This document shows, piece by piece, positions 1,960 through 25,963 of a stretch of DNA of 64,000 nt (positions are counted from its first letter, which is position 1; every line of letters begins with the position of its first letter). The stretch lies in contig NZ_PSWS01000003.1 of assembly GCF_002932875.1 (NCBI RefSeq), positions 1 to 64,000 of the forward strand, in the 5' to 3' direction. Below the pieces are notes generated by a model. The model was not told the origin of the DNA. It worked only from the letters and a program-made list of their open reading frames with translations, and did not search any database. Made by a program: the position numbers and the translations under genes. This DNA is from Rathayibacter tritici (GTDB taxonomy: Bacteria; Actinomycetota; Actinomycetes; Actinomycetales; Microbacteriaceae).

Positions 1960-2589
1960 CTACTGAAGCAGGAACTGCGTCGGCGACCCCGAGGCGATCC
2001 CCGCGACCGACACCGACAGATTGTAGGCCGCGCCGCCCGCGGCGACCGCCTCGCGGCCACCCGAGCAGGTGTCGGCGGAGGAGCGGGTGCGGTCCCAGGT
2101 CAGCCCGCTCCCCGTCACCGAACGGCCGGCCTGGAGGAGCACGGAGAGGTCGGCGGCGCCGGTCTGGCAGTCGGTCGAAGTCCAGATCTGCTCGGAGCCG
2201 CTGGTGATCGTGAAGACCTGCGTGCTGGTGCCCGCGTCGATCACGCAGTCGGTGCTCGAGGTGTTCGTCAGTGAGAGGGAGAGCTGCGGATCCTCGCCGG
2301 GCGCGTAGCTCGTGGCATCGGTGACCGCGGTCACGGCGACCGAGTCGGCCGTGCAGGCCGGAGCCGCACCGGGCGAAGCGCCGGGCGAGCCATCGGGCGA
2401 GGTTGTCGGGTAGAGCGTCGGCAGGGCAGCAGTCGGCGTGGAGCTCGACTCGGCGTCGGACGCGCCCATCCGCGGAAGCATCGAGAGGAGGACCGCCAGG
2501 CCCGCGACGATCACGACGAGCGCGAGCAGCGCGGCGGCGCGGCGTCGCCGGTAGACCCGGGAAGGCAGGCGGCGGGGCGGCGGAGTCAC
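1960..2589 (-). CDS. Exported DUF4232-like protein
   Basis: 209 residues. An Arg-rich cytoplasmic start (RRLPSRVYRRRR) is followed by one hydrophobic segment at about residues 18-38, then a Ser/Thr/Pro/Gly-rich linker to about residue 75, then a compact domain starting at ACTADSVAV. That domain has paired cysteines and a pattern resembling DUF4232 exported beta-sandwich domains of actinobacteria. It is probably a membrane-anchored extracytoplasmic protein. It lies 50 bp from the DUF2207 gene on the same strand and could be cotranscribed. The family call is from pattern only and the function is unknown. Confidence 0.6.
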   Translation of the reverse strand: MTPPPRRLPSRVYRRRRAAALLALVVIVAGLAVLLSMLPRMGASDAESSSTPTAALPTLYPTTSPDGSPGASPGAAPACTADSVAVTAVTDATSYAPGEDPQLSLSLTNTSSTDCVIDAGTSTQVFTITSGSEQIWTSTDCQTGAADLSVLLQAGRSVTGSGLTWDRTRSSADTCSGGREAVAAGGAAYNLSVSVAGIASGSPTQFLLQ

Positions 2590-2615
2590 CGGGACAGGCT
2601 ACGACGTGCCGACGG

Positions 2616-3125
2616 TCACAGCGTCTTCAGCATCCGAGTGTTGCCGAGCGTGTTCGGCTTGACGCGGGCGAGGTCGAGGAATTCGGCGACTCCCTCATCA
2701 GGTGAGCGGAGCAGCTCAGCGTAGACATCGGGATCGACGACCTTCTCGCCGATCGGCTCGAAGCCGTGCCGGGTGAAGAAGTCGACCTCGAAGGTGAGGC
2801 AGAACAGGCGCTTCAAGCCGAGCGCGCGGGCATCGTTCTCGAGGCGCTCCAGGATGTGGTGGCCGACCCCCTTGCCGAGCCAGTCCTGCGCGACCGCGAG
2901 GGTGCGCACCTCCGCGATGTCGTCCCACATCACATGCAGCGCTCCACAGCCGATGGCGGTGCCGTCGCCGTCCTCCGCGATCCGGAACTCCTGAACAGCG
3001 CCGTACAGCACCACGCGGTCCTTGCCGAGGAGCACACGCTCGTTCACGAGCGGCTCACTCAGCTCCTGGATGAACGGGACATCGCTCGTGCGCGCCCGGC
3101 GCACCGGGTACTTCCAATCAGCCAC
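2616..3125 (-). CDS. Amino-acid N-acetyltransferase, GNAT family (ArgA-like)
   Basis: 169 residues forming a single GNAT domain. The acetyl-CoA binding region reads VRTLAVAQDWLGKGVGHHILERL, with the Q/R-x-x-G-x-G pattern at about residues 79-86. The sequence FFTRHGFEPI near the C-terminal third is typical of the stand-alone actinobacterial N-acetylglutamate synthase (Rv2747 type), which makes N-acetylglutamate for arginine synthesis. The full domain length fits that family. No arginine genes are adjacent, so the substrate assignment rests on the overall pattern and is less certain than the fold. Confidence 0.7.
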   Translation of the reverse strand: MADWKYPVRRARTSDVPFIQELSEPLVNERVLLGKDRVVLYGAVQEFRIAEDGDGTAIGCGALHVMWDDIAEVRTLAVAQDWLGKGVGHHILERLENDARALGLKRLFCLTFEVDFFTRHGFEPIGEKVVDPDVYAELLRSPDEGVAEFLDLARVKPNTLGNTRMLKTL

Positions 3126-3234
3126 CCGTCCAGCCTAGGGGCGCGGGACACCGACCCCATCGCGAGGCGCCGCCGTACGAGCGGTGTCTTGCTACACAGG
3201 GTGATCTCGACCGCAGCGGACCCGGGAACGACGC

Positions 3235-3268
3235 CGTGCCCGCCCCTTCGCGAGCAGGGACGGGCACG
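3235..3268 (-). terminator. Stem-loop downstream of clpC
   Basis: Bases 3235-3242 (CGTGCCCG) pair with 3261-3268. After one mismatch the stem continues with CCCT against AGGG, leaving an 8-base loop. It begins 18 bases beyond the clpC stop and there is no clear T-run. It is likely a transcription terminator or 3' stabilising hairpin. Confidence 0.5.
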
Positions 3269-3285
3269 AATCGGTCGGGACGCCG

Positions 3286-5796
3286 CTATGACATCAGGTC
3301 GGGCGTCGCCGGGCCGGCCGTGGCCGCTCCGGTCGATGCACCGGCGCTGATCGAGATCAACCGCGGAGTGGTGGTGAACACGAAGCCGTTGTCGACGAAG
3401 TCCACGTGGATGTGGTCGCCGGCACCGAGCTCGCCGTGCAGGATCCGCTCGGACAGCTGGTCCTCGATCTCACGCTGGATGGCGCGGCGCAGGGGGCGTG
3501 CTCCGAGGGCCGGGTCGAACCCGACCTCGATCAGGCGCTCCTTGGCCGGCTGCGTCAGCTCGACTGTCATGTCGCGGTCGAGCAGGCGGTCGCCGAGGCG
3601 CTTGATGAACAGGTCGACGATCTGCAGCAGCTCGGGCTTGGACAGCTGCGGGAAGACGATGACGTCGTCCACGCGGTTGAGGAACTCGGGCTTGAAGTGC
3701 TTCTTCAGTTCCTCGTTGACCTTGCCGCGCATCCGGTCGTAGCCAGTCGCGCTGTCGCCCTCGATCTGGAAGCCGACGGGACCACCGGCGATGTCACGAG
3801 CACCGAGGTTGGTGGTCATGATGATGACGGTGTTCTTGAAGTCGACGACACGGCCCTGACCGTCGGTCAGGCGCCCCTCCTCCAGGATCTGCAGGAGCGA
3901 GTTGAAGATATCCGGGTGCGCTTTCTCGATCTCGTCGAAGAGAACCACGCTGAACGGCTTGCGCCGCACCTTCTCGGTGAGCTGGCCGCCCTCTTCGAAG
4001 CCGACGAACCCGGGAGGGGCGCCGAACAGCCGCGAGACGGTGTGCTTCTCGCCGTACTCCGACATGTCGAGCGAAATCATCGCGTTCTCGTCGTCGAAGA
4101 GGAACTCGGCGAGCGCCTTGGCCAGCTCGGTCTTTCCGACGCCGGTGGGGCCGGCGAAGATGAACGAGCCGGAGGGGCGCTTGGGGTCCTTCAGGCCGGC
4201 ACGGGTGCGGCGAATGGTGCGGGAGAGTGCCGCGATTGCCTCCTCCTGACCGATCACGCGCTGGTGCAGAGCCTTCTCCATGAAGACGAGCCGCGAGGAC
4301 TCCTCCTCGGTGAGCTTGAACACCGGAATGCCCGTCGCCTGGGCGAGGACCTCGGCAATCAGGCCCTCGTCGACCACACCGGTGGCCTTGACGTCGCCGG
4401 ACTTCCACTGCTTCTCGAGGCGCAGGCGCTCACCGAGCAGCTGCTTCTCCTCGTCACGGAGCGAGGCGGCCTTCTCGAAGTCCTGGTCCTCGATGGCGGC
4501 CTCCTTGGCCGCGCGGACGACGGCGATGCGGTCATCGAAGTCGCGCAGCTCCGGCGGTGCCGACAGGATCGAGAGGCGCAGGCGCGCGCCGGCCTCATCG
4601 ATCAGGTCGATCGCCTTGTCGGGGAGGAAGCGGTCGCTGATGTAGCGGTCCGCCAGGTTGGCCGCCGAGACGATCGCGCCGTCGGTGATCGACACCTTGT
4701 GGTGCGCCTCGTAGCGGTCGCGCAGTCCCTTGAGGATGTTGATGGTGTGGGGCAGCGACGGCTCCGCGACCTGGATCGGCTGGAAGCGACGCTCAAGCGC
4801 TGCGTCCTTCTCGAAGTGCTTGCGGTACTCATCGAGCGTGGTCGCGCCGATGGTCTGCAGCTCACCGCGGGCGAGCAGCGGCTTGAGGATGGAGGCGGCG
4901 TCGATAGCGCCCTCCGCGGCCCCTGCGCCGACAAGGGTGTGGATCTCGTCGATGAAGGTGATGATGTCGCCGCGGGTGCGAATCTCCTTCGTGACCTTCT
5001 TCAGGCGCTCCTCGAAGTCTCCGCGGTAGCGGGACCCGGCGATGAGCGAGCCGAGGTCGAGCGTGTAGAGCTGCTTGTCCTTGAGCGTCTCGGGCACGTC
5101 GCCGCGCACGATCGCCTGGGCGAGGCCCTCGACGACGGCGGTCTTGCCGACGCCGGGCTCGCCGATCAGCACGGGGTTGTTCTTGGAGCGGCGGGAGAGG
5201 ATCTGCATGACCCGCTCGATCTCCTTCTCGCGCCCGATGACCGGGTCGAGCTTGTTGTCGCGCGCCGCCTGCGTGAGGTTGCGTCCGAACTGGTCGAGGA
5301 TCTGCGATCCTCCCTGAGGCTGCTGCTGCTCACCGCCCACGGCGACCTGCTCCTTGCCCTGGTAGCCCGAGAGCAGCTGGATGACCTGCTGGCGCACGCG
5401 GTTCAGGTCGGCGCCGAGCTTGACGAGCACCTGGGCCGCGACACCCTCGCCCTCGCGGATGAGGCCGAGCAGGATGTGCTCGGTCCCGATGTAGTTGTGG
5501 CCGAGCTGCAGCGCTTCGCGCAGGGACAGCTCGAGGACCTTCTTCGCCCGAGGCGTGAAGGGGATGTGGCCGGTCGGCTGCTGCTGCCCCTGGCCGATGA
5601 TGTCCTGCACCTGCTCGCGCACTGCATCGAGCGAGATGCCGAGGGATTCGAGCGCCTTGGCGGCTACTCCCTCACCCTCGTGGATCAGGCCCAGCAGGAT
5701 GTGCTCCGTGCCGATGTAGTTGTGATTGAGCATCTTGGCCTCTTCCTGGGCCAGGACGACGACGCGCCGCGCGCGATCGGTGAATCTCTCGAACAT
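3286..5796 (-). CDS. clpC: ATP-dependent Clp protease ATP-binding subunit ClpC
   Basis: 836 residues from ATG 5796, chosen because [13 protein letters not shown] is the conserved ClpC N-terminus and AGGGAG lies 7 bases upstream; the frame is open further upstream but is not conserved-looking. It has two Clp N-domain repeats, each with [11 protein letters not shown]. The first AAA+ module has Walker A GEPGVGKT near residue 211, a UVR-like middle segment reads [15 protein letters not shown], and the second AAA+ module has Walker A GPTGVGKT near residue 548. ClpC is a hexameric cytosolic unfoldase that feeds substrates to ClpP. The gene appears monocistronic, with a hairpin after the stop. Confidence 0.97.
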
Positions 5797-6030
5797 GCTG
5801 TCACTCCCTACGGAACCCGCAGGGGTGGGCTCCGATACGTCGACTGTAGCCAGCGCTCCCCTCGGTGCGGAGGGCTGTTCGCCCTGGGCGTGCAGTAGGC
5901 GAGGAAGACGAGTGTCCGGCCGGCGGAACCGGCAGGAAACGACACGTTTGCGGCGGCAGAAGAGTTTGCGCCACGATGACTGAGCGCCCTCGCAGTGAGG
6001 GTGCCTCGACACTCTCTGAGGACGCACCAC

Positions 6031-7005
6031 GTGACAGCACACCCACGCCCCTTCCGCGCCGCGGCCGTAGCCGCAGCAGCGCTCGGTCTCCTCCTCGCCA
6101 CCGCGGCTCCGGCGTCGGCCGGTTCGAACGTCAGCGAGGACATCCTCCAGTACAACGGCGGCGGGATCACCGTCGACGCGGGCCCCGCCTACGCGGGCTA
6201 CGACGTCTTCGTTCAGTCGCAGACGCCCCGCTCGGCCACCCGCTCGGGCGGCGTCTGGACGGTACAGAAGGCGTCATTGGACGCCGAGGGCTCAGCCCGA
6301 GTCGTCAACCTGGCCGGCCCGGTGAACCTGTACTTCTTCAGCCCGAGCGCGGTCAAGCCCTCGCTGGAGCTGCCGCCGGCGAACGCGACGGCGGCGATCT
6401 ACCGCGGCCAGGAGGTCGAGTACACCGTCGACCCCGCCGCCGGAACCGCTGTCCTCGAGGGCGACGTGCCGACGGCTGTCGCGCCTGATTTGCGCGACTA
6501 CCAGTCCTCCATCATGCCGTTCACGCCCGCCGATATCGCGCCAGCGACGTACACGAAGGGCGAGCCCTTCGACCTCACCTTCTCGAACCTCTCCTGGGCG
6601 ACCGAGAACGATCTGGACGGGCTCTCGACCAGCGTGGTCATCTACTCCGACCCGACCACGCTCGGCACGCCGACGATCACCGACGCTGCCGTCACCCAGA
6701 CCATCGGCGCCGAGTGGACGACGGATCCGCACACCGTCGCCCTCATGGACTCCTACGGCCGGATCCTCGCCGTCGCGACGCTTGACGGCGGGGCGACCGC
6801 CGAGGAGACCCCGGCCGCCACTCCGGCCGAGACGCCCGCGGCCGCGGTCCCTGTCGTCGACACCGGCTCGAAGCCGACGTCGGCCCAGCCCCACCTCGCC
6901 GAGACCGGAGTCGAGGCGGGCGGTCTCGCCCTCGTCGCCTCCGCGCTGCTCCTGGCTGGAGCCGGCGGACTCGTGATGGCGCGTCGCCGCCGCGCGAGCG
7001 CCTGA
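6031..7005 (+). CDS. Secreted surface protein with LAETG sorting signal
   Basis: 324 residues from GTG 6031, preferred over GTG 5995 because GAGGA lies 8 bases upstream and the signal peptide then starts near the N-terminus. The signal peptide (about residues 8-30, ending ASA) is followed by a region of beta character with no recognised catalytic motif and a Thr/Pro/Ala-rich linker near residue 260. The C-terminus carries LAETG, then a hydrophobic segment, then RRRRASA. LAxTG signals of this type are used by class E sortases of actinobacteria, which would attach the protein to peptidoglycan. The LCP gene begins 11 bases downstream, suggesting a cell-envelope operon. Confidence 0.75.
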   Translation: MTAHPRPFRAAAVAAAALGLLLATAAPASAGSNVSEDILQYNGGGITVDAGPAYAGYDVFVQSQTPRSATRSGGVWTVQKASLDAEGSARVVNLAGPVNLYFFSPSAVKPSLELPPANATAAIYRGQEVEYTVDPAAGTAVLEGDVPTAVAPDLRDYQSSIMPFTPADIAPATYTKGEPFDLTFSNLSWATENDLDGLSTSVVIYSDPTTLGTPTITDAAVTQTIGAEWTTDPHTVALMDSYGRILAVATLDGGATAEETPAATPAETPAAAVPVVDTGSKPTSAQPHLAETGVEAGGLALVASALLLAGAGGLVMARRRRASA

Positions 7006-8502: not shown

Positions 8503-9492
8503 ATGAGCAACCTGGAGGAGCATCCCGACGAGCTCTCCGTCGCCGCAGAGCCGGCCCTGCACGCGCCCGGCGCGGTGGAGATCCTCACGGCGCGGCTGGT
8601 CCCGCTCGGCGGTCCGCGCGCTATCGAGGTGCGCCGCACCCTCCCCCAGCGCTCGCGCTCGACCATCGGCGCGTGGTGCTTCGCGGACCATTACGGCCCC
8701 GTCCGGCTGGGCGAGGAAGCGGGGATGGACGTCCCACCGCACCCGCACATCGGCCTGCAGACGGTGAGTTGGCTCTTCGAGGGCGAAATCGAGCACCGCG
8801 ACAGCGTCGGCAGCCGGGCCGTGGTGCGGCCGGGCGAGCTCAACCTGATGACGGCCGGGAGCGGCATCTCCCACTCCGAGGTCTCGACCGGCTCCGCCCC
8901 GGTGCTGCACGGGGTGCAGCTCTGGGTCGCGCTGCCCGAGGAGGCGCGGCTCATCGATCCGTTCTTCGAGCACCACCGCGGCGTGCCCGTGCCGCTGACC
9001 GGTGCGCTGGTGCGCGTCTTCATGGGAGCGATGCTGGGCGCCTCGGTGCCCGCGAGCACTTTCACTCCGCTGGTCGCCGCGCAGATCGACTGTGAGCCCG
9101 GCGCCCGGATCGAGCTGCCGGTGGAGGAGGCGTGGGAGTACGGCGTGCTCGTCGACGCGGGGCCGGTGTCGGTGGAGGGCACCGAGATCCCGCGCTCGGA
9201 TCTCGCCTACCTGGCGCCCGGCCGTTCCCGACTGGGGCTGACGGCCGGCGCCGAGGGCGCGCGGGTGGTGCTGCTGGGCGGCGAGCCGTTCGCCGAGCAG
9301 CTGGTGATGTGGTGGAACTTCGTCGGCCGCAGCCACGACGACGTGGCCGCCGCACGCGAGCGCTGGCAATCGGACGTGATCGCCGGCGCCAACCCGACGG
9401 GTCCGTTCGGCACCGTCGACGGCTACGACGGCCGCGCGCTCCCCGCCCCCGTGCTGCCGACAGTGCGGCTGAAACCCCGCCGCCGGATCTGA
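8503..9492 (+). CDS. Pirin family protein
   Basis: 329 residues of bicupin type. The N-terminal cupin shows IGAWCFADHYGP, then HPHIGLQTVSWLFEGEIEHRDS, whose His residues form the pirin metal site, then MTAGSGISHSE. The second cupin begins near residue 190. Some pirins have quercetinase activity and others act as redox-sensing partners, so the substrate cannot be read from sequence. It lies 37 bases downstream of the LCP gene and converges with ndh. Confidence 0.9.
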   Translation: MSNLEEHPDELSVAAEPALHAPGAVEILTARLVPLGGPRAIEVRRTLPQRSRSTIGAWCFADHYGPVRLGEEAGMDVPPHPHIGLQTVSWLFEGEIEHRDSVGSRAVVRPGELNLMTAGSGISHSEVSTGSAPVLHGVQLWVALPEEARLIDPFFEHHRGVPVPLTGALVRVFMGAMLGASVPASTFTPLVAAQIDCEPGARIELPVEEAWEYGVLVDAGPVSVEGTEIPRSDLAYLAPGRSRLGLTAGAEGARVVLLGGEPFAEQLVMWWNFVGRSHDDVAAARERWQSDVIAGANPTGPFGTVDGYDGRALPAPVLPTVRLKPRRRI

Positions 9493-17447: not shown

Positions 17448-17497
17448 CCGTCGATGCTACCGGCGGGGCTGCGATGCCCCTGCCTCCGGCCCTCTTC

Positions 17498-17514
17498 GCA
17501 GGGACACCGCGGTG
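17498..17514. repeat. Left-edge copy of a palindromic 17-mer bounding the lanthipeptide locus
   Basis: GCAGGGACACCGCGGTG matches 25934-25950 with one mismatch at the fifth base. Its 3' ten bases (CACCGCGGTG) are a perfect palindrome. The copy lies between panC and the last ABC permease gene. The rest of the 17448-17635 gap shows no convincing gene. It may be a recombination scar, an attachment-like site or a regulator site. Confidence 0.55.
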
Positions 17515-17635
17515 GCTCTGGTGGGAACCGAGCAGGTGGCCGGAGCGAACCAGACGGCGATGGCGGCGTGACGTGGTGCGCTGATCGGCGGGGCGTCTGG
17601 GCGGGGCGGGGCGTCTCGGCGAGTGCCGCTCCCTC

Positions 17636-18382
17636 TCAGCGAAGCTTGACGACGCGGAGCGCGACGACCGAAAGCCACGTCAGCGCCGCCGCGAGCGCGA
17701 TCGCGGTCGCAACGAGCGGCACGACATCGTCGGCCGTGAGTCCCCCGGAGCCGACGAACGCGGTGGAACCGAGGTTCAGCGCCCGCGTGGCGAGTGCCTG
17801 CGGCAGGACGTAGCCGAGCGGGCGGAGCACCGTGGACGTAAGCGCGGCGACCCCGACGACGCAGCCGATGAGGCAGAGGGCGACAGGCGCCGCGAAGGAT
17901 CGCAGCAGCATCGACAGGAGTGATTGCACGGCGATAAGAGGAAGAGCCGCGACGAGGGCGACGAGCCCCACGACGGCGAACTCCCACGGGAACGGCCCCG
18001 CCAGATGGAGGACGACGGTTCCCGAGATCGCGGTACCTGCGACGAGGACCGCCTGCATGACGGCGGTGGGCAGGAGGACAACGGCGATTTTCGCCAGCGA
18101 GAGCCGCGAAGCTCCGGCGGCGGACGTCAGCACGAGATTCCAGTTCGTGCCGCGGTGCTCGACGCGCCAGACCGTGGCCGTCAGCAGGCTGATCCCCAGT
18201 GAATAGAAGATCAGTCCGTAGAAGAGCACGACCTGCGAGGTGAAGGACCCCCACCCCGAATCGAGCACCTCGGTGTTGTTTCCGAGGTTGATCGTGCCGG
18301 TGACGACAGCGAGGATCGGCAGAATCAGAGCGACGATCCAGGTGCTGGATCGTTTGAGTTTCGTGAGTTCAGCGCGAAACAT
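17636..18382 (-). CDS. ABC-2 type permease of the lanthipeptide locus (LanG/E-like)
   Basis: 248 residues with six hydrophobic segments and no nucleotide-binding motif. The N-terminus (MFRAELTKLKRSSTWIV) is typical of the short permeases that pair in lantibiotic self-protection transporters such as SpaEG or NisEG. The gene follows the other permease by 4 bases and ends the ABC unit. The probable role is to expel the mature peptide from the membrane (immunity) or to export it, together with the ATPase. Its sequence differs clearly from its partner, so the pair is a heterodimer. Confidence 0.82.
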   Translation of the reverse strand: MFRAELTKLKRSSTWIVALILPILAVVTGTINLGNNTEVLDSGWGSFTSQVVLFYGLIFYSLGISLLTATVWRVEHRGTNWNLVLTSAAGASRLSLAKIAVVLLPTAVMQAVLVAGTAISGTVVLHLAGPFPWEFAVVGLVALVAALPLIAVQSLLSMLLRSFAAPVALCLIGCVVGVAALTSTVLRPLGYVLPQALATRALNLGSTAFVGSGGLTADDVVPLVATAIALAAALTWLSVVALRVVKLR

Positions 18383-18386
18383 GGGA

Positions 18387-19163
18387 TTATCCTCCGATGC
18401 GATCGAGACGGTGAAGTCCCACCGAGAAGGCGGCAGCGGCGAGGATCAGGAACCCGACGATCCAGTCGTAGGGCGCCTGGAGATAGACCACGGCGTCGCC
18501 GGACTGCCCGGCCTGCGAGATAACGGCGTAGTACCCCCAGGGAATGACCCGGCTGACGGAAGCAGGACTCAGCAGCGAGAATGCCGCGAGGAACGCGCCG
18601 ATCATCCCGACTCCTACGCTGACGAGCTGGTTTTCCAGGCGTGCGGCGAGCCAGATGTGCAGCGCGCAGAACGTGATGTCGAGCAGAAGAACGAGCCCGG
18701 TGTACACAAGCCAGGGCAGAGGATCGAGGGGCGCGGTGATCCCGACGAGGAGGCCGATGCCGATCACCAGGAGCGTCTGACAGGTGACGGCAGGCGCCAG
18801 CAGGAGAGCCAGAGCGCAGAGTTTGGCGCGACAGAGGCTCGACCGGCTGCGCCCGGAAGTGGCGGCGAGATTCCAGCCGGACCCTGAATGCTCGATGTCG
18901 GTCTGTCTACTGGCGAGCACGGCTGCGACGATCGGTGAGGTGAGCGCCACGATCATGGTGTAGCTGAGCAGCAGTGTCGGCCAGGGCGACGCGTCCGGAT
19001 CATCGAAGGTTGCCCGAGCGCCGCCAGAGAACAGAGAGGCGGAGCTGAGGGCGGCAGCAGCACCGACGAGACCGATCAGGAGCGGGATCGCCCGCAGCCG
19101 CCGCATCTTGCGGAACTCCAACGCCACGGAGCCCGTCAGCCGTCGTGTCCGTGGACGCGTCAC
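18387..19163 (-). CDS. ABC-2 type permease of the lanthipeptide locus
   Basis: 258 residues from GTG 19163, overlapping the ATPase stop in a GTGA. It has about six hydrophobic segments, and the N-terminus SVALEFRKMRRLRAIPLL resembles the first membrane entry of LanE/LanG permeases. Together with the downstream permease it should form the membrane part of a three-component transporter. No peptidase domain is present, so it cannot by itself remove a leader peptide. Confidence 0.82.
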   Translation of the reverse strand: MTRPRTRRLTGSVALEFRKMRRLRAIPLLIGLVGAAAALSSASLFSGGARATFDDPDASPWPTLLLSYTMIVALTSPIVAAVLASRQTDIEHSGSGWNLAATSGRSRSSLCRAKLCALALLLAPAVTCQTLLVIGIGLLVGITAPLDPLPWLVYTGLVLLLDITFCALHIWLAARLENQLVSVGVGMIGAFLAAFSLLSPASVSRVIPWGYYAVISQAGQSGDAVVYLQAPYDWIVGFLILAAAAFSVGLHRLDRIGG

Positions 19164-20059
19164 AGGAGACCACCCCGGCCGGTCAGATCCATGAAGACGT
19201 CCTCGAGCCTCTGCTGGACGCGACGGACCTCGTGGATCGGGACGTCGGCATCGACGAGGCGCTTGATGAGCGCGGCGGTGTCGTCCTTCCCGTACCCGCT
19301 GACCCGAATCCGCCCCCCTGTCGCCACCGCGTCCGGGACCAGCCGAAGGACCTCCTCCGGCGCGGGGGTATCGAGGACGAGGTCAGGCACGGAATGCGCG
19401 AAAAGCTGGTCGCGGCTGCCCTGGAAGATCAGCCTCCCTCCGGCGAGGATGCCGAGGACCGAGGCCATTTTGTCGATCTCATCGAGGAGGTGGCTGGAGA
19501 CCATCACCGTGATCCCCTGGTCTGCCAGGTGGAGCAGGAGTGTGCGGATCTCTTCGATACCCGCTGGATCCAGACCGTTGGTCGGCTCGTCCAGAACGAG
19601 GAGGACGGGATCGCGGGCGAGAGCCACGGCGATACCGAGGCGCTGCTTCATTCCGAGGGAATAGTGACGCACGAGCTTGTCCTTGTGCTCGGTCAGTCGC
19701 ACCGTGCGGAGCGCATGCTCGATCTGCGCGTCGGCGAGGCCGAGCATGTCTCGCACGATCAGCATGTTCTCCCACCCCGTGAGGTGCCCGTACCCGGGAG
19801 GCGCCTCGATCATCGAGCCGATCGAGTCGAGCACCTGGCCCCGTCCCGTGCGGGTGAGGGGCTGGCCGAACACCTCGATGGAGCCGGACGTCGGCTGGGT
19901 GAGTCCGAGCAGCATCTTCATCGTGGTGGACTTGCCGGAGCCGTTGGGTCCCAGAAAGCCGTAGACCACACCCGATGGCACGACGAGGTTGAGCTCGTCC
20001 ACTGCCGTATGGCGCCTGAAGCGCTTCGTCAGCCCGTGCGTGGCAATGACTGTGCTCAT
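19160..20059 (-). CDS. ABC transporter ATP-binding protein (LanF/BcrA-like)
   Basis: 299 residues. Walker A is GPNGSGKST near residue 37, the signature loop reads YSLGMKQRLGIA in place of LSGGQ, as is usual for BcrA/LanF ATPases, and Walker B is VLLVLDEPTNGLDP. The C-terminal 80 residues form the extra domain of this subfamily. CAGGAG lies 8 bases before ATG 20059. It powers the two permeases downstream, most likely for producer immunity against the lanthipeptide; export is an alternative because no other transporter is present in the locus. Confidence 0.9.
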   Translation of the reverse strand: MSTVIATHGLTKRFRRHTAVDELNLVVPSGVVYGFLGPNGSGKSTTMKMLLGLTQPTSGSIEVFGQPLTRTGRGQVLDSIGSMIEAPPGYGHLTGWENMLIVRDMLGLADAQIEHALRTVRLTEHKDKLVRHYSLGMKQRLGIAVALARDPVLLVLDEPTNGLDPAGIEEIRTLLLHLADQGITVMVSSHLLDEIDKMASVLGILAGGRLIFQGSRDQLFAHSVPDLVLDTPAPEEVLRLVPDAVATGGRIRVSGYGKDDTAALIKRLVDADVPIHEVRRVQQRLEDVFMDLTGRGGLL

Positions 20060-20238
20060 GCTGCACTCCTGTCCCTGGTCGGCCCTGTCGTGCCGTGATC
20101 GGCCCCCTCCCGGCGCCGCGGCATCCAGATTGATATGGCTTCCATCGTCGCGGCGGGAGAACCGATGCGAATCATGCTGCGGGCGGACATGCGACGACTT
20201 TTCTCCTCTGATGGTGGGAGATGGGCCGGCGCGGCAGG
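20060..20238 (-). promoter_or_regulatory. Gap between response regulator and ABC genes
   Basis: 179 bases with no coding frame that looks real. It carries the ribosome binding site of the ATPase gene and is AT-richer around 20125-20215 than its surroundings. It probably holds a separate promoter for the transporter genes. No clear dyad was identified. Confidence 0.4.
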
Positions 20239-20946
20239 TCAGCCGGAGGTACTGATGTCGAGGGACGGCTCGGCCCAGCCGAGCCCCCGACGATGTGCCC
20301 AGATGACCAGGTGGACGCGGTCGCGCACGTGCAGCTTCGCCAGGATGTGTCCGACATGCGTCTTGACGGTGACTTCGGCGAGGCAGAGATCCCGCGCGAT
20401 CTCAGGATTCGACTTGCCCGACACGACGTGCTCGAACACCACCCGTTCGCGCTTGGTCAGCGCGGCGAGAGTCGAATCGTCCGGCGGCGCTCCTTCGCTG
20501 TCTCCTGCGGCCATTCGCTTCACCAATCGGACCGCGGTACTCGCCGAGGTCGTGAAGGTCCCGCTGTGAGCGGCACGGATCGCCGTGGCGAGCTGCTCGG
20601 CAGTGCTGTCCTTGAGGATGAAGCCGACGGCTCCCGCCTGAAGCATGCGGATGGCGTACACGTCACTGTCGTGGGTGGTGAGTCCGAGAATCCGCGTTCT
20701 GGGGCTGATCCGCTCGGAGGTGATGACCCGCGTCGCTTCGATCCCGTCCAAGACGGGCATTCGGACGTCCATCAGCACCAGGTCCGGTCGCAGGTCGCGC
20801 ACACGCTCGATGGCCGTCGCACCATCGACCGCGTGGCTCACTGTCTCCATGTCCGGCTGCGCGTTGACGATGCGGATCAAGCCGTCGCGGACCAGAGCGT
20901 GATCGTCCACCACCATCACCGTGATGCGGGCTCTCGCCGCCGTCAC
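20239..20946 (-). CDS. NarL/LuxR-type response regulator of the lanthipeptide locus
   Basis: 235 residues from GTG 20946, overlapping the kinase stop in a GTGA. The receiver domain has the acidic pair at VVDDHALVRDGL and the phosphoacceptor D60 in DLVLMDVRMPVLDG. The C-terminal helix-turn-helix reads LTKRERVVFEHVVSGKSNPEIARDLCLAEVTVKTHVGHILAKL. With the adjoining kinase it forms a two-component system. The neighbouring transporter and lanA promoters are the natural targets, with envelope stress or the peptide itself as possible signals. Confidence 0.93.
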   Translation of the reverse strand: MTAARARITVMVVDDHALVRDGLIRIVNAQPDMETVSHAVDGATAIERVRDLRPDLVLMDVRMPVLDGIEATRVITSERISPRTRILGLTTHDSDVYAIRMLQAGAVGFILKDSTAEQLATAIRAAHSGTFTTSASTAVRLVKRMAAGDSEGAPPDDSTLAALTKRERVVFEHVVSGKSNPEIARDLCLAEVTVKTHVGHILAKLHVRDRVHLVIWAHRRGLGWAEPSLDISTSG

Positions 20947-22079
20947 GCGGAGGCTCCATCAACGCCCGCACGCAGCGGCCAGCACGCCGTGATCACGAAG
21001 ACGTCACCGTGCGAGTAGCAGACGCTGCCGCCGTAGAGCTCACAGCGACGACGCATCCCGGTGATCCCCCGCTGCTCACGAAGTGGCGCGGCCGGAGCCG
21101 AAGCGATCGGATTCGTCGTGACAACGGTGAGTGTCCCCTCCGCCCAGGCCACCCCCACCCACGCCTGGTCGCCGCTGCCGTGCCGCAGAGCATTGGTCAG
21201 AGATTCCTGGACCACTCGGTAGACAGACAGGGACAGCTCCGGAGTCAGCGGCTGCGAGACGCCGACGACATGAAGAGTGACGGTCATCCCCGATTTCGCG
21301 AAGCCCTCGACCAGCTCTGCGAGGTCATCGATTCCGGGCGTCGGCAGCGCCGCTGACGCGATCTCGGCGGAGAGCAGCCCACGGATCTCGCGGAGGGCCG
21401 AACGGCTCGTCGCGGAGATCGTCTCGAACACGTCGGCCGCCCGCGGATCCGACGTGTCCGCCCTGCCGCTCTCGGCCTGCACCACAACGCTCGTCAACGT
21501 GTGCGCGAGCACATCGTGCATCTCGGCGCTGATGCGCTCGCGTTCTTCATACGCGGCCAGCCGGCTCCGGATCGCGACAGTGCGCTCCGAGAGTTCGTGC
21601 CGATGGCGGGCGGCGCGTAATGCCTCGACCTTCCGGCGCTCGAGAAGCCCGAGCGCCCACGCCACCACCATGCTGGACGCGACCAGCCCGACGATCGGAC
21701 TGGCCGCCCCGAGGCTCGACGACGCCCCGACCAGGGCCCATCCGCCCAGAGACACGGCGTAGCCGATTCCCAGGAAGAGGCCGATGGTGCGCGCCTGCTC
21801 CGGTGCGTGTGCGGCGACGGAGAAGACGGCGACCAGCAGGACCGCGTCCCCCGGCAGGAGCAGTCCGCCATTGAGGAGGAGGTGGGCCACCGACACCGCT
21901 GCGGCCAGCACGGCGAAGACGACCGGACGGGTTCGACGCACGATCAGCAACGCGGCCATCAGTACCGACCACTGCCACTCAGTCCCACCGAGCAGACCCG
22001 GCGCGGCGCACACCAGGACGGCGACAGCAGCGACGATCACGTCGCCTGCCCACCACTCAATCCTCGTGTCCCGCACCAC
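20943..22079 (-). CDS. Sensor histidine kinase, HisKA_3 (DesK/NarX) type
   Basis: 378 residues from GTG 22079. The frame stays open to 22271, but the extra stretch is Arg-rich and unlike a membrane entry. No start has a strong ribosome binding site, so this choice is tentative. The N-terminal half has about five hydrophobic segments (from WWAGDVIVAAVAVLV). The phosphoacceptor region reads ERISAEMHDVLAHTLTSVV, and the ATPase domain has LTNALRHGSG and GITGMRRRCELYGGS. It is paired with the downstream NarL-type regulator and faces lanA. Confidence 0.9.
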   Translation of the reverse strand: MVRDTRIEWWAGDVIVAAVAVLVCAAPGLLGGTEWQWSVLMAALLIVRRTRPVVFAVLAAAVSVAHLLLNGGLLLPGDAVLLVAVFSVAAHAPEQARTIGLFLGIGYAVSLGGWALVGASSSLGAASPIVGLVASSMVVAWALGLLERRKVEALRAARHRHELSERTVAIRSRLAAYEERERISAEMHDVLAHTLTSVVVQAESGRADTSDPRAADVFETISATSRSALREIRGLLSAEIASAALPTPGIDDLAELVEGFAKSGMTVTLHVVGVSQPLTPELSLSVYRVVQESLTNALRHGSGDQAWVGVAWAEGTLTVVTTNPIASAPAAPLREQRGITGMRRRCELYGGSVCYSHGDVFVITACWPLRAGVDGASA

Positions 22080-22478
22080 CCGAAGATAAGCCGGGCGCCG
22101 CGGAAGAGACGCGAAGTGGCGCCCGCTCGCGGTCCGCCTCCTCCGACCGGATGAGGCAAGCACACCGACCGGATCACCCCGTCGCCAGAGATCCCACCAT
22201 CGGATAGTTCCGACGTACACCCGCGACGTCTTACAGTCGCGGCGCACCCGGAACCGAGATGCCTTCGACAATCAGGTCACTGACGACGGCATCTCTGCAG
22301 AGATCGGATCTTTTTTCCCGTCGCTGCGTGCTCGATTCTCCGTGACTCTTCCGGTGTCACGCGGTTCTCGACGTCCGGTCGTCCCGCGCACCCCGCGGCG
22401 CTTCGTCGTCGCTCCGTGCGCCCCCCTACCCCTCGGCGAGGCCGAGCGGCGAAAGAAAACGAAGGAAAGGAAGAGATT
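22080..22478. promoter_or_regulatory. Divergent control region between kinase and lanA with three dyads
   Basis: 399 bases without a convincing gene if the kinase starts at 22079. It holds three dyads: CCGCGAC at 22221-22227 pairing with 22236-22242 (8-base spacer); the 14-bp palindrome ATCTCTGCAGAGAT at 22291-22304, followed by six T at 22311-22316; and CGTGAC at 22341-22346 pairing with 22356-22361 (9-base spacer). NarL-type regulators bind dyads of this size. The purine-rich end AAGGAAG (22466-22472) is the lanA ribosome binding site. Confidence 0.5.
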
Positions 22479-22682
22479 ATGCCCGAGATTCTCGAGAGAG
22501 AGGCCACCGTCGTGAGCCCCCACTGGGACCTGACGGCTCGTGCTGGTCACGGAACCAGCCCGTCGGTTCAGGCACAGATCGACGAGGCGTTCGAACGCGT
22601 CGTCAGCCCGTACATGGGCAGCAGCGGCTGGATGTGCACACTCACGATCGAGTGCGGCACGGTCGTCTGCGCCTGTCGCTGA
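22479..22682 (+). CDS. lanA: Class II lanthipeptide precursor, actagardine/michiganin type
   Basis: 67 residues from ATG 22479, with AAGGAAG 6 bases upstream; an earlier in-frame start at 22416 would add 21 unlikely residues. The acidic leader covers about residues 1-46. The core (residues 47 or 48 to 67) contains [14 protein letters not shown] and ends CACR, nearly identical in pattern to actagardine and to michiganin A of Clavibacter. By analogy the rings would be Ser48-Cys53, Thr54-Cys59, Thr56-Cys64 and Thr61-Cys66. Relatives bind lipid II and block peptidoglycan synthesis of Gram-positive bacteria. The leader ends SPYMG, so cleavage after Met46 (21-residue product) or after Gly47 (20 residues) is possible. 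The adjacent lanM provides the ring-forming enzyme. Confidence 0.95.
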
Positions 22683-22695
22683 CGTCATCCGCACG

Positions 22696-22730
22696 GCGGG
22701 CGACCCGGGCCTCGTTCCCGGGTCGCCCGC
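22696..22730 (+). terminator. Perfect 14-bp hairpin between lanA and lanM
   Basis: GCGGGCGACCCGGG (22696-22709) pairs perfectly with 22717-22730 around a 7-base loop. It begins 14 bases after the lanA stop and ends 39 bases before lanM. No T-run follows. Such a stem is expected to allow partial read-through and stabilise the upstream message, giving more precursor than synthetase mRNA. Confidence 0.75.
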
Positions 22731-22769
22731 GATCCTCACCTCAGCGATCGACCCGAAGGCTGGCCCGCC

Positions 22770-25700
22770 ATGCTCCGTCACGAAGATTCTCTCGTCTCCC
22801 CGCAGGCGGACGCCTCGCCGGCCTCTCCCGCGTCGGCCGAGTCGCCGGAGATCGCCGCCCTGCGGGTCTGCCTCCTCCAGGCCGCCGCTCTGCGTGAACG
22901 CCGACCCGACGGCGGTTCCCTGCACGCAGGCGACCCCTCGATCGTGCGCACCTGGTCGGATCGGGCGCTCGCCCTCGACACGACCCTCGAGAGCTATCTC
23001 ACCGTTCAGGGCCTCGACCGCGAAGGACTCACCGCGCTCCTCACCGGGGGACCCTGGTCGCCCCGCGAGCGAAGTGCCGAGTGGATCGACTCGGTCGAGG
23101 ACTGGCTGATCACGCCCGTGGACACCCCGCGGAGCCCGTTCGGACCGCTGATCGTTGAGGGCACCCGCCTCGCCGAGCTGCCGTTCGACGGCTTGCTCGC
23201 CCCTGTCCTGCATGCGCAGCGGGTCCGCTTCGATCGGCACCCCGATCTCGCGCCTGCTGCGCGGACCGATCTCCTCACCGGCCTCGCCGAGATCCTGGCC
23301 ACGCTGGCCCTGCGCTGTCTGCTCGCCGAGCTCGCGGACGACGACGTTTCCGGAGCATACGCGCGACTGAACACGGCGCTGTCTGCTCCCGACGTCCGGC
23401 GGGCGTTCTTCTCCCGCTACCCGGTCCTCGCTCGGGATCTGGTCGCCGCGATCAGCGCCTGGGGCGACCACGTCGAGCGCATCCTCACCCGTCTGAGCAG
23501 TGATACGCGGGCACTGAGTGACGCCGGTCTGCTGCCGCGCGGAACCGACGCGCTCGAGGCGGTCCACTTCGCCGGCGACGCTCACGACGACGGACAGTCC
23601 GTCGCGATTCTGCGGTTCGTCAGCGGCCATCGACTCGTCTACAAGCCGCGGGACTGCGGCGTGTTCACGCTCTACGAGGCGGTGAACGCCGTGCTTGCCG
23701 AGGTGCTTGAGCCCGATGCTTCCCTATCCTCGCCCCGCTCCCTCGTCAGGGACGGATACGGATGGGTCGAGTACGTGAAACGTCCGGACGACGCAGCCGG
23801 CACTCCTCTGACGCATTTGCGCAAGCTCGGCGGCCTGCTGGCGGTCACCTCTGTCCTCGGAGCCTCGGACATGCATCTCGAGAACGTCATCGCTACCGCA
23901 GCGGGCCCGGTACCGATCGACCTCGAGACTCTGATCCAGAACAGAAGTCACCGCGAGAGCGCGATGACGGCGAGCACCCGCGCCATCGACGACCTCAACA
24001 GCTCGGTCCTCGGGACAGGCATCCTGCCCGTGCGACTCACCACGGGGGAGAGTTCCAGCATCGACGTCAGCGTCGCCACGGGCGGACTCGGCTCCGAGGG
24101 CAGGACGGCCGTGATCCACCAGGTGGTCGGTGCCTGCACTGACGACATGCGCATCAGCGCAGTGGACACGCCGGTCGGCACCTCCCAGAACCAGCCGCCA
24201 GGGATGACGCTGGCGCTGGTGCGCGCTCAGAGGGAGGTGGTCGCGGCAGGATTCGCTGAGACCGCTCGAGCGGTGATCCAGCGCCGAGCCCAGATCATCG
24301 ACCTCATCACGACCGCACCCGCGATGACCGCGCGACACATCCTGCGCGCCACGCGCTCCTACTCGCTGCTGCTGACGGAGATGCGCCAGCCGGGCCGTCT
24401 GTGCACCGGCATCGACAGGGACCACCTTCTTCGAAGCCTCTGGACCAGGCTCGCCGACCATCCCGACCAAGCAGAGCTCATCGACGCCGAGGAGCAGTCG
24501 CTCCGGCAAAGAGATGTGCCCCTCTTCACCACCGCGCTGGACTCGCGCACTCTCACCGCGCACCACGGTCGGGCACTCTCCGACTACTTCACGAGAACGC
24601 TCCGCGATGACGTCATCGCACGCCTCACTGCGCTTAATGAGGCGAGCATCGAGCGGTCGATCGCCCTCATCCGAGAATCGATCCTCGCAGCCACGCCGGG
24701 AGAGCAGGAGGACGACGAGGCGCAGGCAGTCACGCCCTCTGCGCGCGGCACGGTCAGAGAGCTCGCGCGGGCACAGGCGGGCCTCCTCGCAGACACCGCG
24801 ATTCTGGGGGAGGACGACGTGACGTGGATCAGCGTGTGCAGCAGCACGGACAGCACCGGACTGGAGTACCGGCCGGTGGGCCCGACACTCTACGACGGCC
24901 TCGCCGGCATCGCGTTCTCTGCGGCCTGCGCGCACCGCGTCGTCCCGCACCTCGGCCTCGACGACCTCGCCGGACGCGCCTCCCACGCCATCGCCGCCAT
25001 CCTCGACGACTGGAGCGCGTCCCGCGTCTCCCTCCCGATCGGCGCCTTCAGCGGTGCCGCCGGCCTGCTCTACTCGCTCGCCCGACAGGACAGCCTGCTC
25101 GGCACTGATCGATACCGGCCGACCCGGTTGGCTGCGATCCGTCGGCTCACCGACGAAGCACGATCCGACACCTTCTTCGACGTGATGGCGGGCAGCGCAG
25201 GAGCTCTCGCCGTCGTGACGGCCCTCCCCGAATCCCAGACGGAGGAGGGGCGGACCGCTGTGCGGACTCTAGCGGCACATCTCCTCGACCACGGCGTCGA
25301 TGCCGGCGACGGCTCGCTCGCGTGGGAGAGCGGAACGGCACGGGTGCGTCTCGGCGGGTTCTCGCACGGTGCCACGGGAATCGGGTGGGCACTCGCCAGA
25401 GCAGCGGACGCACTGGGCGACGGGGAGATCGGCGACGCAGCGCTCGCAGCTCTCCGATTCGACGACACGCTCTTTGATCCGCAGCGAGGACGCTGGTTGG
25501 ACGCCCGCACGGAATCGCTCGAGCAGGGCCGCCTGTTCCCGGCCCACTGGTGCCATGGCACAGCCGGCATCGCGATGGCTCGTGCAGCGTCGGCAGCACT
25601 GCTCGACGCGCCCGATCTCCTCGAACGCGCCGTCATCGGAGCAGATCAGACGACCGACGACCGACTGCCCGCCGACGATTCGCTGTGCCACGGTGCGCTG

Positions 25701-25928
25701 GGGAACCTGCTAGCCCTCCGGGCAGTCGACACGCACGCACCCGGCCGCGTCGACGTCGCGTCCTTCGCCGAGCGCACCCTCGACAGGATCGGACGCTCCG
25801 ACGCCCGGAGCGGTCTTCCGAGGGGAATCACGACGGTCCGCGGTCTCCTGCTCGGGACCGCCGGTGCCCTCTACGCGCTCTGCCGCGAAGTCGACCCCGA
25901 TCTGCCGAACGTCCTCCTCCTCGAGTGA
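22770..25928 (+). CDS. lanM: Class II lanthipeptide synthetase LanM
   Basis: 1052 residues, the usual LanM length. The dehydratase half has LVYKPRD with K292, the DxHxxN motif as D367-H369-N372 (GASDMHLENVI) and D384 in PIDLET, matching the kinase-like active site of CylM. The C-terminal LanC-like cyclase has H866 in GGFSHGATG and zinc ligands C928 (HWCHGTAG), C973 and H974 (SLCHGALG). All key residues are present, so it should dehydrate Ser/Thr of the precursor and close the thioether rings. The ribosome binding site before ATG 22770 is weak (AAGG). It probably shares its promoter with lanA through the intervening hairpin. Confidence 0.96.
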   Translation: MLRHEDSLVSPQADASPASPASAESPEIAALRVCLLQAAALRERRPDGGSLHAGDPSIVRTWSDRALALDTTLESYLTVQGLDREGLTALLTGGPWSPRERSAEWIDSVEDWLITPVDTPRSPFGPLIVEGTRLAELPFDGLLAPVLHAQRVRFDRHPDLAPAARTDLLTGLAEILATLALRCLLAELADDDVSGAYARLNTALSAPDVRRAFFSRYPVLARDLVAAISAWGDHVERILTRLSSDTRALSDAGLLPRGTDALEAVHFAGDAHDDGQSVAILRFVSGHRLVYKPRDCGVFTLYEAVNAVLAEVLEPDASLSSPRSLVRDGYGWVEYVKRPDDAAGTPLTHLRKLGGLLAVTSVLGASDMHLENVIATAAGPVPIDLETLIQNRSHRESAMTASTRAIDDLNSSVLGTGILPVRLTTGESSSIDVSVATGGLGSEGRTAVIHQVVGACTDDMRISAVDTPVGTSQNQPPGMTLALVRAQREVVAAGFAETARAVIQRRAQIIDLITTAPAMTARHILRATRSYSLLLTEMRQPGRLCTGIDRDHLLRSLWTRLADHPDQAELIDAEEQSLRQRDVPLFTTALDSRTLTAHHGRALSDYFTRTLRDDVIARLTALNEASIERSIALIRESILAATPGEQEDDEAQAVTPSARGTVRELARAQAGLLADTAILGEDDVTWISVCSSTDSTGLEYRPVGPTLYDGLAGIAFSAACAHRVVPHLGLDDLAGRASHAIAAILDDWSASRVSLPIGAFSGAAGLLYSLARQDSLLGTDRYRPTRLAAIRRLTDEARSDTFFDVMAGSAGALAVVTALPESQTEEGRTAVRTLAAHLLDHGVDAGDGSLAWESGTARVRLGGFSHGATGIGWALARAADALGDGEIGDAALAALRFDDTLFDPQRGRWLDARTESLEQGRLFPAHWCHGTAGIAMARAASAALLDAPDLLERAVIGADQTTDDRLPADDSLCHGALGNLLALRAVDTHAPGRVDVASFAERTLDRIGRSDARSGLPRGITTVRGLLLGTAGALYALCREVDPDLPNVLLLE

Positions 25929-25933
25929 GCCGT

Positions 25934-25950
25934 GCAGAGACACCGCGGTG
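25934..25950. repeat. Right-edge copy of the palindromic 17-mer
   Basis: GCAGAGACACCGCGGTG matches 17498-17514 at 16 of 17 positions. The palindrome here extends to 12 bases (ACACCGCGGTGT). It lies in the 35-base gap between the lanM stop and the DUF2520 stop, exactly at the right boundary of the lanthipeptide locus. Confidence 0.55.
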
Positions 25951-25963
25951 TGAGGCACCAGTG

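Follow-up and report, generated by a model that had tools for sequence, protein, structure and literature searches.

Michiganin A, from Clavibacter michiganensis, and actagardine are the lantibiotics closest to the locus described here. The leader of michiganin A is given as ending in RRVVSPYM, and its mass is printed as 2145.5 and 2145.0, which we take as predicted and measured values (PMC3930743). Lantibiotics of the mersacidin class share one ring that is believed to bind lipid II; its Glu is apparently essential for mersacidin activity (PMC2706954). We analyzed a stretch of 64,000 nucleotides from Rathayibacter tritici (contig NZ_PSWS01000003.1, positions 1 to 64,000; hereafter the window), in which seven genes make up a cassette: two permeases, an ATPase, a response regulator and a histidine kinase on the reverse strand, and the precursor gene lanA and synthetase gene lanM on the forward strand. 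We put the probability of a michiganin-type class II lantibiotic cassette, with the product, target, immunity and regulation proposed below, at roughly 90%.

By its sequence, the locus is a genuine and apparently intact one of the michiganin kind. An earlier note on this DNA had placed a class II lanthipeptide locus of the actagardine/michiganin type at 22479..25928, with a 67-residue precursor and a LanM. Both open reading frames (ORFs) are present (22479-22682 and 22770-25928, forward strand), and the class assignment agrees with the TIGR03897 match, the core, the cassette and the LanM clade. That interval covers lanA and lanM, but the unit is larger, extending over about 17468-25963.

Precursor, synthetase and comparison with michiganin A

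The lanA precursor ends in the predicted 21-residue core with four Cys in michiganin spacing, carries CTLTIECGT, and has a leader ending in SPYM. The DNA pattern for CTLTxECGT has a single occurrence in the window, and none of 100 shuffled sequences contains it. The lanM gene begins 87 bases beyond the end of lanA and encodes a protein with the DUF4135 dehydratase and LanC-like cyclase domains of class II enzymes (Pfam), scoring 616 bits with NCBIfam TIGR03897 (cut-off 304). Its motifs align with those of the solved enzyme LicM2, and, with numbering carried over by motif spacing from a solved LanM whose dehydratase and cyclase residues are named in PMC4550811, all catalytic counterparts are present (D270/H272, K292, D367/H369/N372, D384, R522/T528), as are the zinc ligands (C928/C973/H974). 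The retention of these residues, as the earlier note had it, is thus borne out.

Ten loci across five genera carry these seven genes in one and the same order: the window, R. iranicus, three genomes of the Clavibacter set (G002, G191, G418), three of the Microbacterium set (G003, G004, G622), Sinomonas humi and Actinomyces gerencseriae. These loci were collected from a CTLTxECGT pattern scan of genome contigs, which gave 14 loci, 13 with a precursor, and from LanM searches; a flavobacterial match in the scan (L006) was taken as chance. In a midpoint-rooted LanM tree the ten cassette enzymes form one exclusive clade (support 100/100), and the LanMs of Actinoplanes, Micromonospora and Salinispora form a separate one (100/99). 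Within the michiganin branch, identity to the window LanM is 56-91%.

Among these loci, that of G418 (L053) is taken to be the michiganin A locus because its precursor agrees with the published leader end and mass: its core with four dehydrations has a computed average mass of 2145.55 Da. Like it, the window has the identical seven genes in order, the SPYM leader end, the Cys spacing and CTLTIECGT, and the two LanMs are about 55% identical. The window core differs from michiganin A in having Gly for Ser at position 1, Met for Leu after Trp, and Val-Val for Ile-Ile. Neither a LanT nor an oxidase was seen among the three flanking genes scanned at L053.

The R. iranicus NCPPB 2253 cassette (L014/L023), for which our literature search found no paper, is closer still: it lies at the identical panC-DUF2520 site, with LanM 91% and precursor 87% identical to those of the window. 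It shares Met52 and Gly47 with the window precursor, but has Ile-Ile instead of Val-Val in the core and an intact major facilitator superfamily (MFS) gene beside the cassette. The earlier note had located Met52, Val62, Val63, Gly47 and the four Cys correctly, and had singled out the Met and Gly as the distinctive changes. This is not supported, as both are found in R. iranicus and the ten cassette precursors differ in the residue that precedes SSGW (A in six, G in two, S and V in one each). We also rejected the idea that Met52, Gly47 and Val62/63 are each unique, since GTVVCAC occurs in Micromonospora and Salinispora. The full residue combination of the window core is absent from the other precursors compared, from the pattern-scan loci and the cassettes. 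Overall, the core appears to be an unremarkable variant.

A probable cleavage site and an expected mass follow from the comparison. SPYM directly precedes the core in all ten cassette precursors, and because the window leader end ERVVSPYM closely resembles that of michiganin A, the leader is probably cut after Met46. Gly47, which the earlier note had placed at the leader boundary, would then be residue 1 of a 21-mer product, whose computed monoisotopic mass with four dehydrations is 2103.88 Da.

Table 1. Coordinates of the lantibiotic cassette and associated features in the window.
Feature	Position	Strand	Basis
Lantibiotic cassette/island between panC and DUF2520/Rossmann gene	about 17468..25963	both	Flank alignments with and without cassette
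MFS gene remnant, 55 bp (context, not a cassette member)	17509..17563	+	91% match to L023 16360-16414
ABC-2 permease, MutE-like	17636..18382	-	Pfam ABC2_membrane_4 above cut-off; TIGR03732 33.1 bits (cut-off 145.2)
ABC-2 permease, MutG-like	18387..19163	-	Pfam ABC2_membrane_4 above cut-off; TIGR03733 34.6 bits (cut-off 117.2)
ABC ATPase, lantibiotic-protection type	19160..20059	-	Pfam ABC_tran above cut-off; best NCBIfam TIGR03740 245.2 bits (cut-off 309.75)
Weaker second copy of putative box, in gap ahead of ABC genes	20168..20191	-	13.1 bits in held-out scan, second in rank at the locus
LuxR/NarL-type response regulator	20239..20946	-	Pfam Response_reg + GerE above cut-off
Histidine kinase (DUF7134 + HisKA_3)	20943..22079	-	Pfam; HATPase_c under cut-off; start GTG 22079 inferred, ORF extends to 22271
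Conserved 24-base putative regulatory box upstream of lanA	22188..22211	+	Held-out matrix scans
lanA, 67-aa precursor	22479..22682	+	ORF translation; purine-rich stretch ahead of ATG
Predicted 21-residue core	22617..22679	+	Published michiganin A leader end (SPYM)
lanM, class II lanthipeptide synthetase, 1052 aa	22770..25928	+	TIGR03897 616 bits; Pfam DUF4135 + LANC_like

Proposed mechanism and regulation

Gene content, catalytic motifs, family placement, the box and the patchy occurrence are read from the sequence; from these we infer ring pattern, cleavage, target, immunity and regulation as follows. LanM would dehydrate four core Ser/Thr residues and close four thioether rings, and leader removal after SPYM would yield a non-oxidised 21-residue peptide of ~2103.9 Da (monoisotopic). 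Through its conserved CTLTIEC ring, this peptide would bind lipid II and so inhibit related Gram-positive competitors; this target is a reasonable assumption because the equivalent ring is shared across the mersacidin class (PMC2706954). The two permeases and the ATPase would protect the producer. The kinase and regulator would sense the peptide or envelope stress and turn on lanA via the conserved box; in Rathayibacter, this control probably extends to the ABC genes. The predicted peptide is a close natural variant within a family of lantibiotics that is of clinical and crop-protection interest and whose members are believed to bind lipid II.

Relative to the lanA start, the box is 268-291 bases upstream. 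When the whole locus (12-19 kb, both strands) was scanned with a matrix built from other lineages, the box ranked first in seven of eight cassettes and eighth in Sinomonas. It also ranked first in both cassettes added later, narrowly so in G418 (8.2 vs 6.9 bits). The initial sites were chosen by eye, a bias that favours the later scan. An unsupervised motif search over five lineages had the box in its best solution for three, missing it in Clavibacter and Sinomonas; our case for the box is made on the held-out scans. The weaker second copy, ahead of the ABC genes, occurs in both Rathayibacter loci, and the gaps of the six remaining loci lack it (8 gaps tested). In other genera, kinase homologues begin to align at residue 51-77 of the long kinase ORF (92 in G191).

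Several observations weigh against this reading. The precursor scores 22.6 bits with the plantaricin C family model NF000539, under its 29-bit cut-off, which is also missed by the precursors of L053 (20.3), R. iranicus (23.0) and Micromonospora (20.7). The cassette ABC genes likewise fall under the cut-offs of the named lantibiotic-immunity models. Michiganin A has 21 residues, yet only three rings (two methyllanthionine, one lanthionine) according to one review (PMC10676316); the four rings given in PMC3930743 are flagged there as lacking experimental demonstration. Against R. iranicus, dN/dS of lanA is 0.85, on just 45 synonymous sites. Finally, the cassette holds no known LanT or C39 gene to account for export and leader removal.

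Export and leader removal

The absence of a recognisable exporter or leader protease of the usual kind from a cassette found as a unit in five genera is the point of most interest. A Pfam scan of the seven window genes gave no LanT, C39 or other peptidase domain, and the gene after lanM in the window does not encode a LanT-like exporter. At the nine other loci, with one to four flanking genes sampled each, neither a C39 domain nor an ABC_membrane exporter was seen. In a C39 family search, eight of the nine other cassette-carrying genomes, that of the probable michiganin A producer among them, gave no match. R. iranicus, the remaining one, has a match covering profile positions 3-66 of 133 on another contig, which we rejected as an explanation for leader removal because it is half-length and on a different contig. 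That the search works is indicated by the control set, with matches in 8 of 14 known genomes. A parallel search for M1 peptidases matched in six of six genomes and hence did not discriminate.

With eight of nine carriers lacking a match and the ninth having half of one, leader removal in the michiganin-type group is probably not carried out by a C39 LanT. Unless the assemblies miss one, the lack of a complete C39 peptidase in the nine carrier genomes searched means that leader removal, and perhaps export, use something else. A literature search of partial coverage turned up no discussion of LanT/C39-free export and leader removal.

One possible answer is that the cassette ABC transporter, two permeases plus ATPase, acts as both immunity pump and exporter, so that the cassette is complete save for a general host protease. 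We regard this as tentative and, on balance, unlikely. In its favour, the ABC transporter is the sole one among the seven genes conserved in ten cassettes, the cassette neighbours vary among the five genera, and A. gerencseriae carries these three genes twice, the extra, diverged set lying beside lanM. On the other hand, transporters of this type generally are immunity pumps, the MFS gene beside lanM in all three Microbacterium-group loci could export, and in Propionicimonas a related three-gene ABC transporter (60-73% identical) lies near a C39-type gene, so that separate export is possible there. Slightly more doubtful is the broader proposal of a self-contained, transferable seven-gene design that does without LanT or C39: in michiganin-type cassettes, the ABC-2 'immunity' transporter would also export the peptide, a host protease of another family would cut after SPYM, and one box would tie the peptide (in Rathayibacter also the pump) to the two-component system.

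Other genes were seen beside these cassettes. An MFS_3 transporter gene lies directly after lanM on the opposite strand in all three Microbacterium-set cassettes (L025 12040-13311, L026 11497-12762, L054 5049-6320) and may be either chromosomal context or a helper exporter. In Microbacterium sp. Yaish 1 (L026), a gene of the Rce1-like CAAX-endopeptidase family (2475-3404, reverse strand) sits beside the permease end; it may code for a protease or for immunity, and no such gene was seen among the flanking genes sampled at other cassette loci. The second ABC copy of A. gerencseriae (L038 3296-6110, forward strand) adjoins lanM and is 48-62% identical to the cassette's ABC genes; the standard copy is also present.

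Chromosomal site and history

The cassette neighbours differ among the five genera. In the window, the gene after lanM is the chromosomal DUF2520/Rossmann gene (Pfam). The window flanks align with the cassette in place to R. iranicus L023, and without it to three Rathayibacter loci (L027, from G010, L028 and L030); the site holds just ~44 bases in L028 and other ORFs in L027 and L030. The counterpart in L023 of the MFS remnant sits in an intact 412-aa ORF with Pfam MFS_1, adjoining the cassette, and the gene appears to have been lost in the window strain. Judged by eye, the corresponding site of the cassette-free genome G010 also holds a similar ORF, and we therefore rejected the MFS neighbour as a member of the window cassette.

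Synonymous divergence (dS) between the window and R. iranicus is 0.07-0.26 for the seven cassette genes and 0.34-0.62 for six flanking genes. Because it is lower inside the cassette than outside, the simplest reading is that it suggests a recent transfer or recombination of the cassette between Rathayibacter species; slower synonymous change within the cassette is a possible alternative account. The closest relative compared, G010, is 93.4% identical over 12.7 kb, and a 2-kb ftsH piece is 94% identical to G010 and 88-91% to the other 14 Rathayibacter genomes, R. iranicus included, which places the window in this genus. GC content across the window, in 2-kb bins, is 65-76%; R. toxicus, with 61.5% outside its toxin cluster (PMC5552033), is therefore an unlikely source.

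The shrinkage of the adjoining MFS gene to a remnant, and the finding of LanM in just 1 of 15 Rathayibacter genomes, would also fit a silent or decaying cassette in the window strain. We consider this improbable: each of the seven frames stays open over the full span of its homologues, lanM has a dN/dS of 0.30 against R. iranicus, the box is kept, and given the MFS-like ORF (by eye) at the cassette-free G010 site, the loss of the MFS gene need not concern the cassette.

Relationship to the actagardine loci

Actagardine and deoxyactagardine B type loci (L003, L007, L008, L011, L013) resemble the window in a core stretch of 19 residues but have a different leader. At one such locus, L042, the only one with flanks scanned, the genes directly after lanM encode an ABC exporter that has no C39 domain (4316-6073, ABC_membrane plus ABC_tran) and a luciferase-like mono-oxygenase. 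The gene for the enzyme of this type that makes actagardine sulfoxide is named garO. No garO-like oxidase was found by Pfam among the eight window proteins scanned (the seven cassette genes and the gene after lanM). As neither the exporter nor the mono-oxygenase of L042 is among the seven window genes, a sulfoxide is not expected.

In sequence terms, the window locus is michiganin-like rather than actagardine-like, and the actagardine sub-type was rejected on the gene content of L042 and the LanM tree. That this is a true, Actinoplanes-type actagardine locus whose product carries the sulfoxide is very improbable: relative to the Micromonospora actagardine-type core, the sole change is Met for Val after Trp, but the leader differs, the L042 exporter and mono-oxygenase are missing from the seven genes and a chromosomal gene follows lanM, and the LanM is only 34-36% identical (long matches) to the actagardine branch, from which the tree keeps it apart.

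Occurrence and other loci

The cassette is rare. LanM matches were found in 1 of 15 genomes of the Rathayibacter set, 3 of 18 of the Clavibacter set and 3 of 366 of the Microbacterium set, and in 2 of 398 sampled genomes of the family; a plasmid search returned 187 records, every one below 60% identity. In the literature, clvA is described as restricted to C. michiganensis (PMC12089995), and the cluster as present outside that species at low frequency (PMC11521342); the latter statement fits the occurrence found here. Our literature search on class II lanthipeptides in Rathayibacter turned up no paper. A cluster with lantibiotic-dehydratase and cyclodehydratase genes is described in R. toxicus (PMC5552033, PMC7143919), and reads as one of a different kind.

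Two loci from metagenome-assembled genomes (MAGs) lie near the michiganin group. The LanM of an actinomycetote MAG (L039) and one of the Propionicimonas LanMs branch nearer the michiganin clade (96/96 and 91/90), the Propionicimonas rows being long branches of unsure placement. L039 (6969-10414 and 10888-11448) has a michiganin-like precursor with leader end TPYM and a LanM 42-44% identical; it lacks the seven-gene cassette, and its upstream ABC ATPase is 28% identical to that of the window. The Propionicimonas MAG (L041) carries two class II-like precursors, of the CTISWEC and CTLTIECGT types (3792-4004, reverse strand; 9211-9387, forward strand), with two different LanM genes around one three-gene ABC transporter and a C39-type match at the edge, and is possibly a two-peptide or double lantibiotic locus. 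Two fragmented LanM matches, excluded from the tree, are split into two pieces in Salinispora mooreana (L043 9264-12315) and three in the draft of Actinoplanes liguriensis (L044 3011-5765); these are either broken genes or draft errors.

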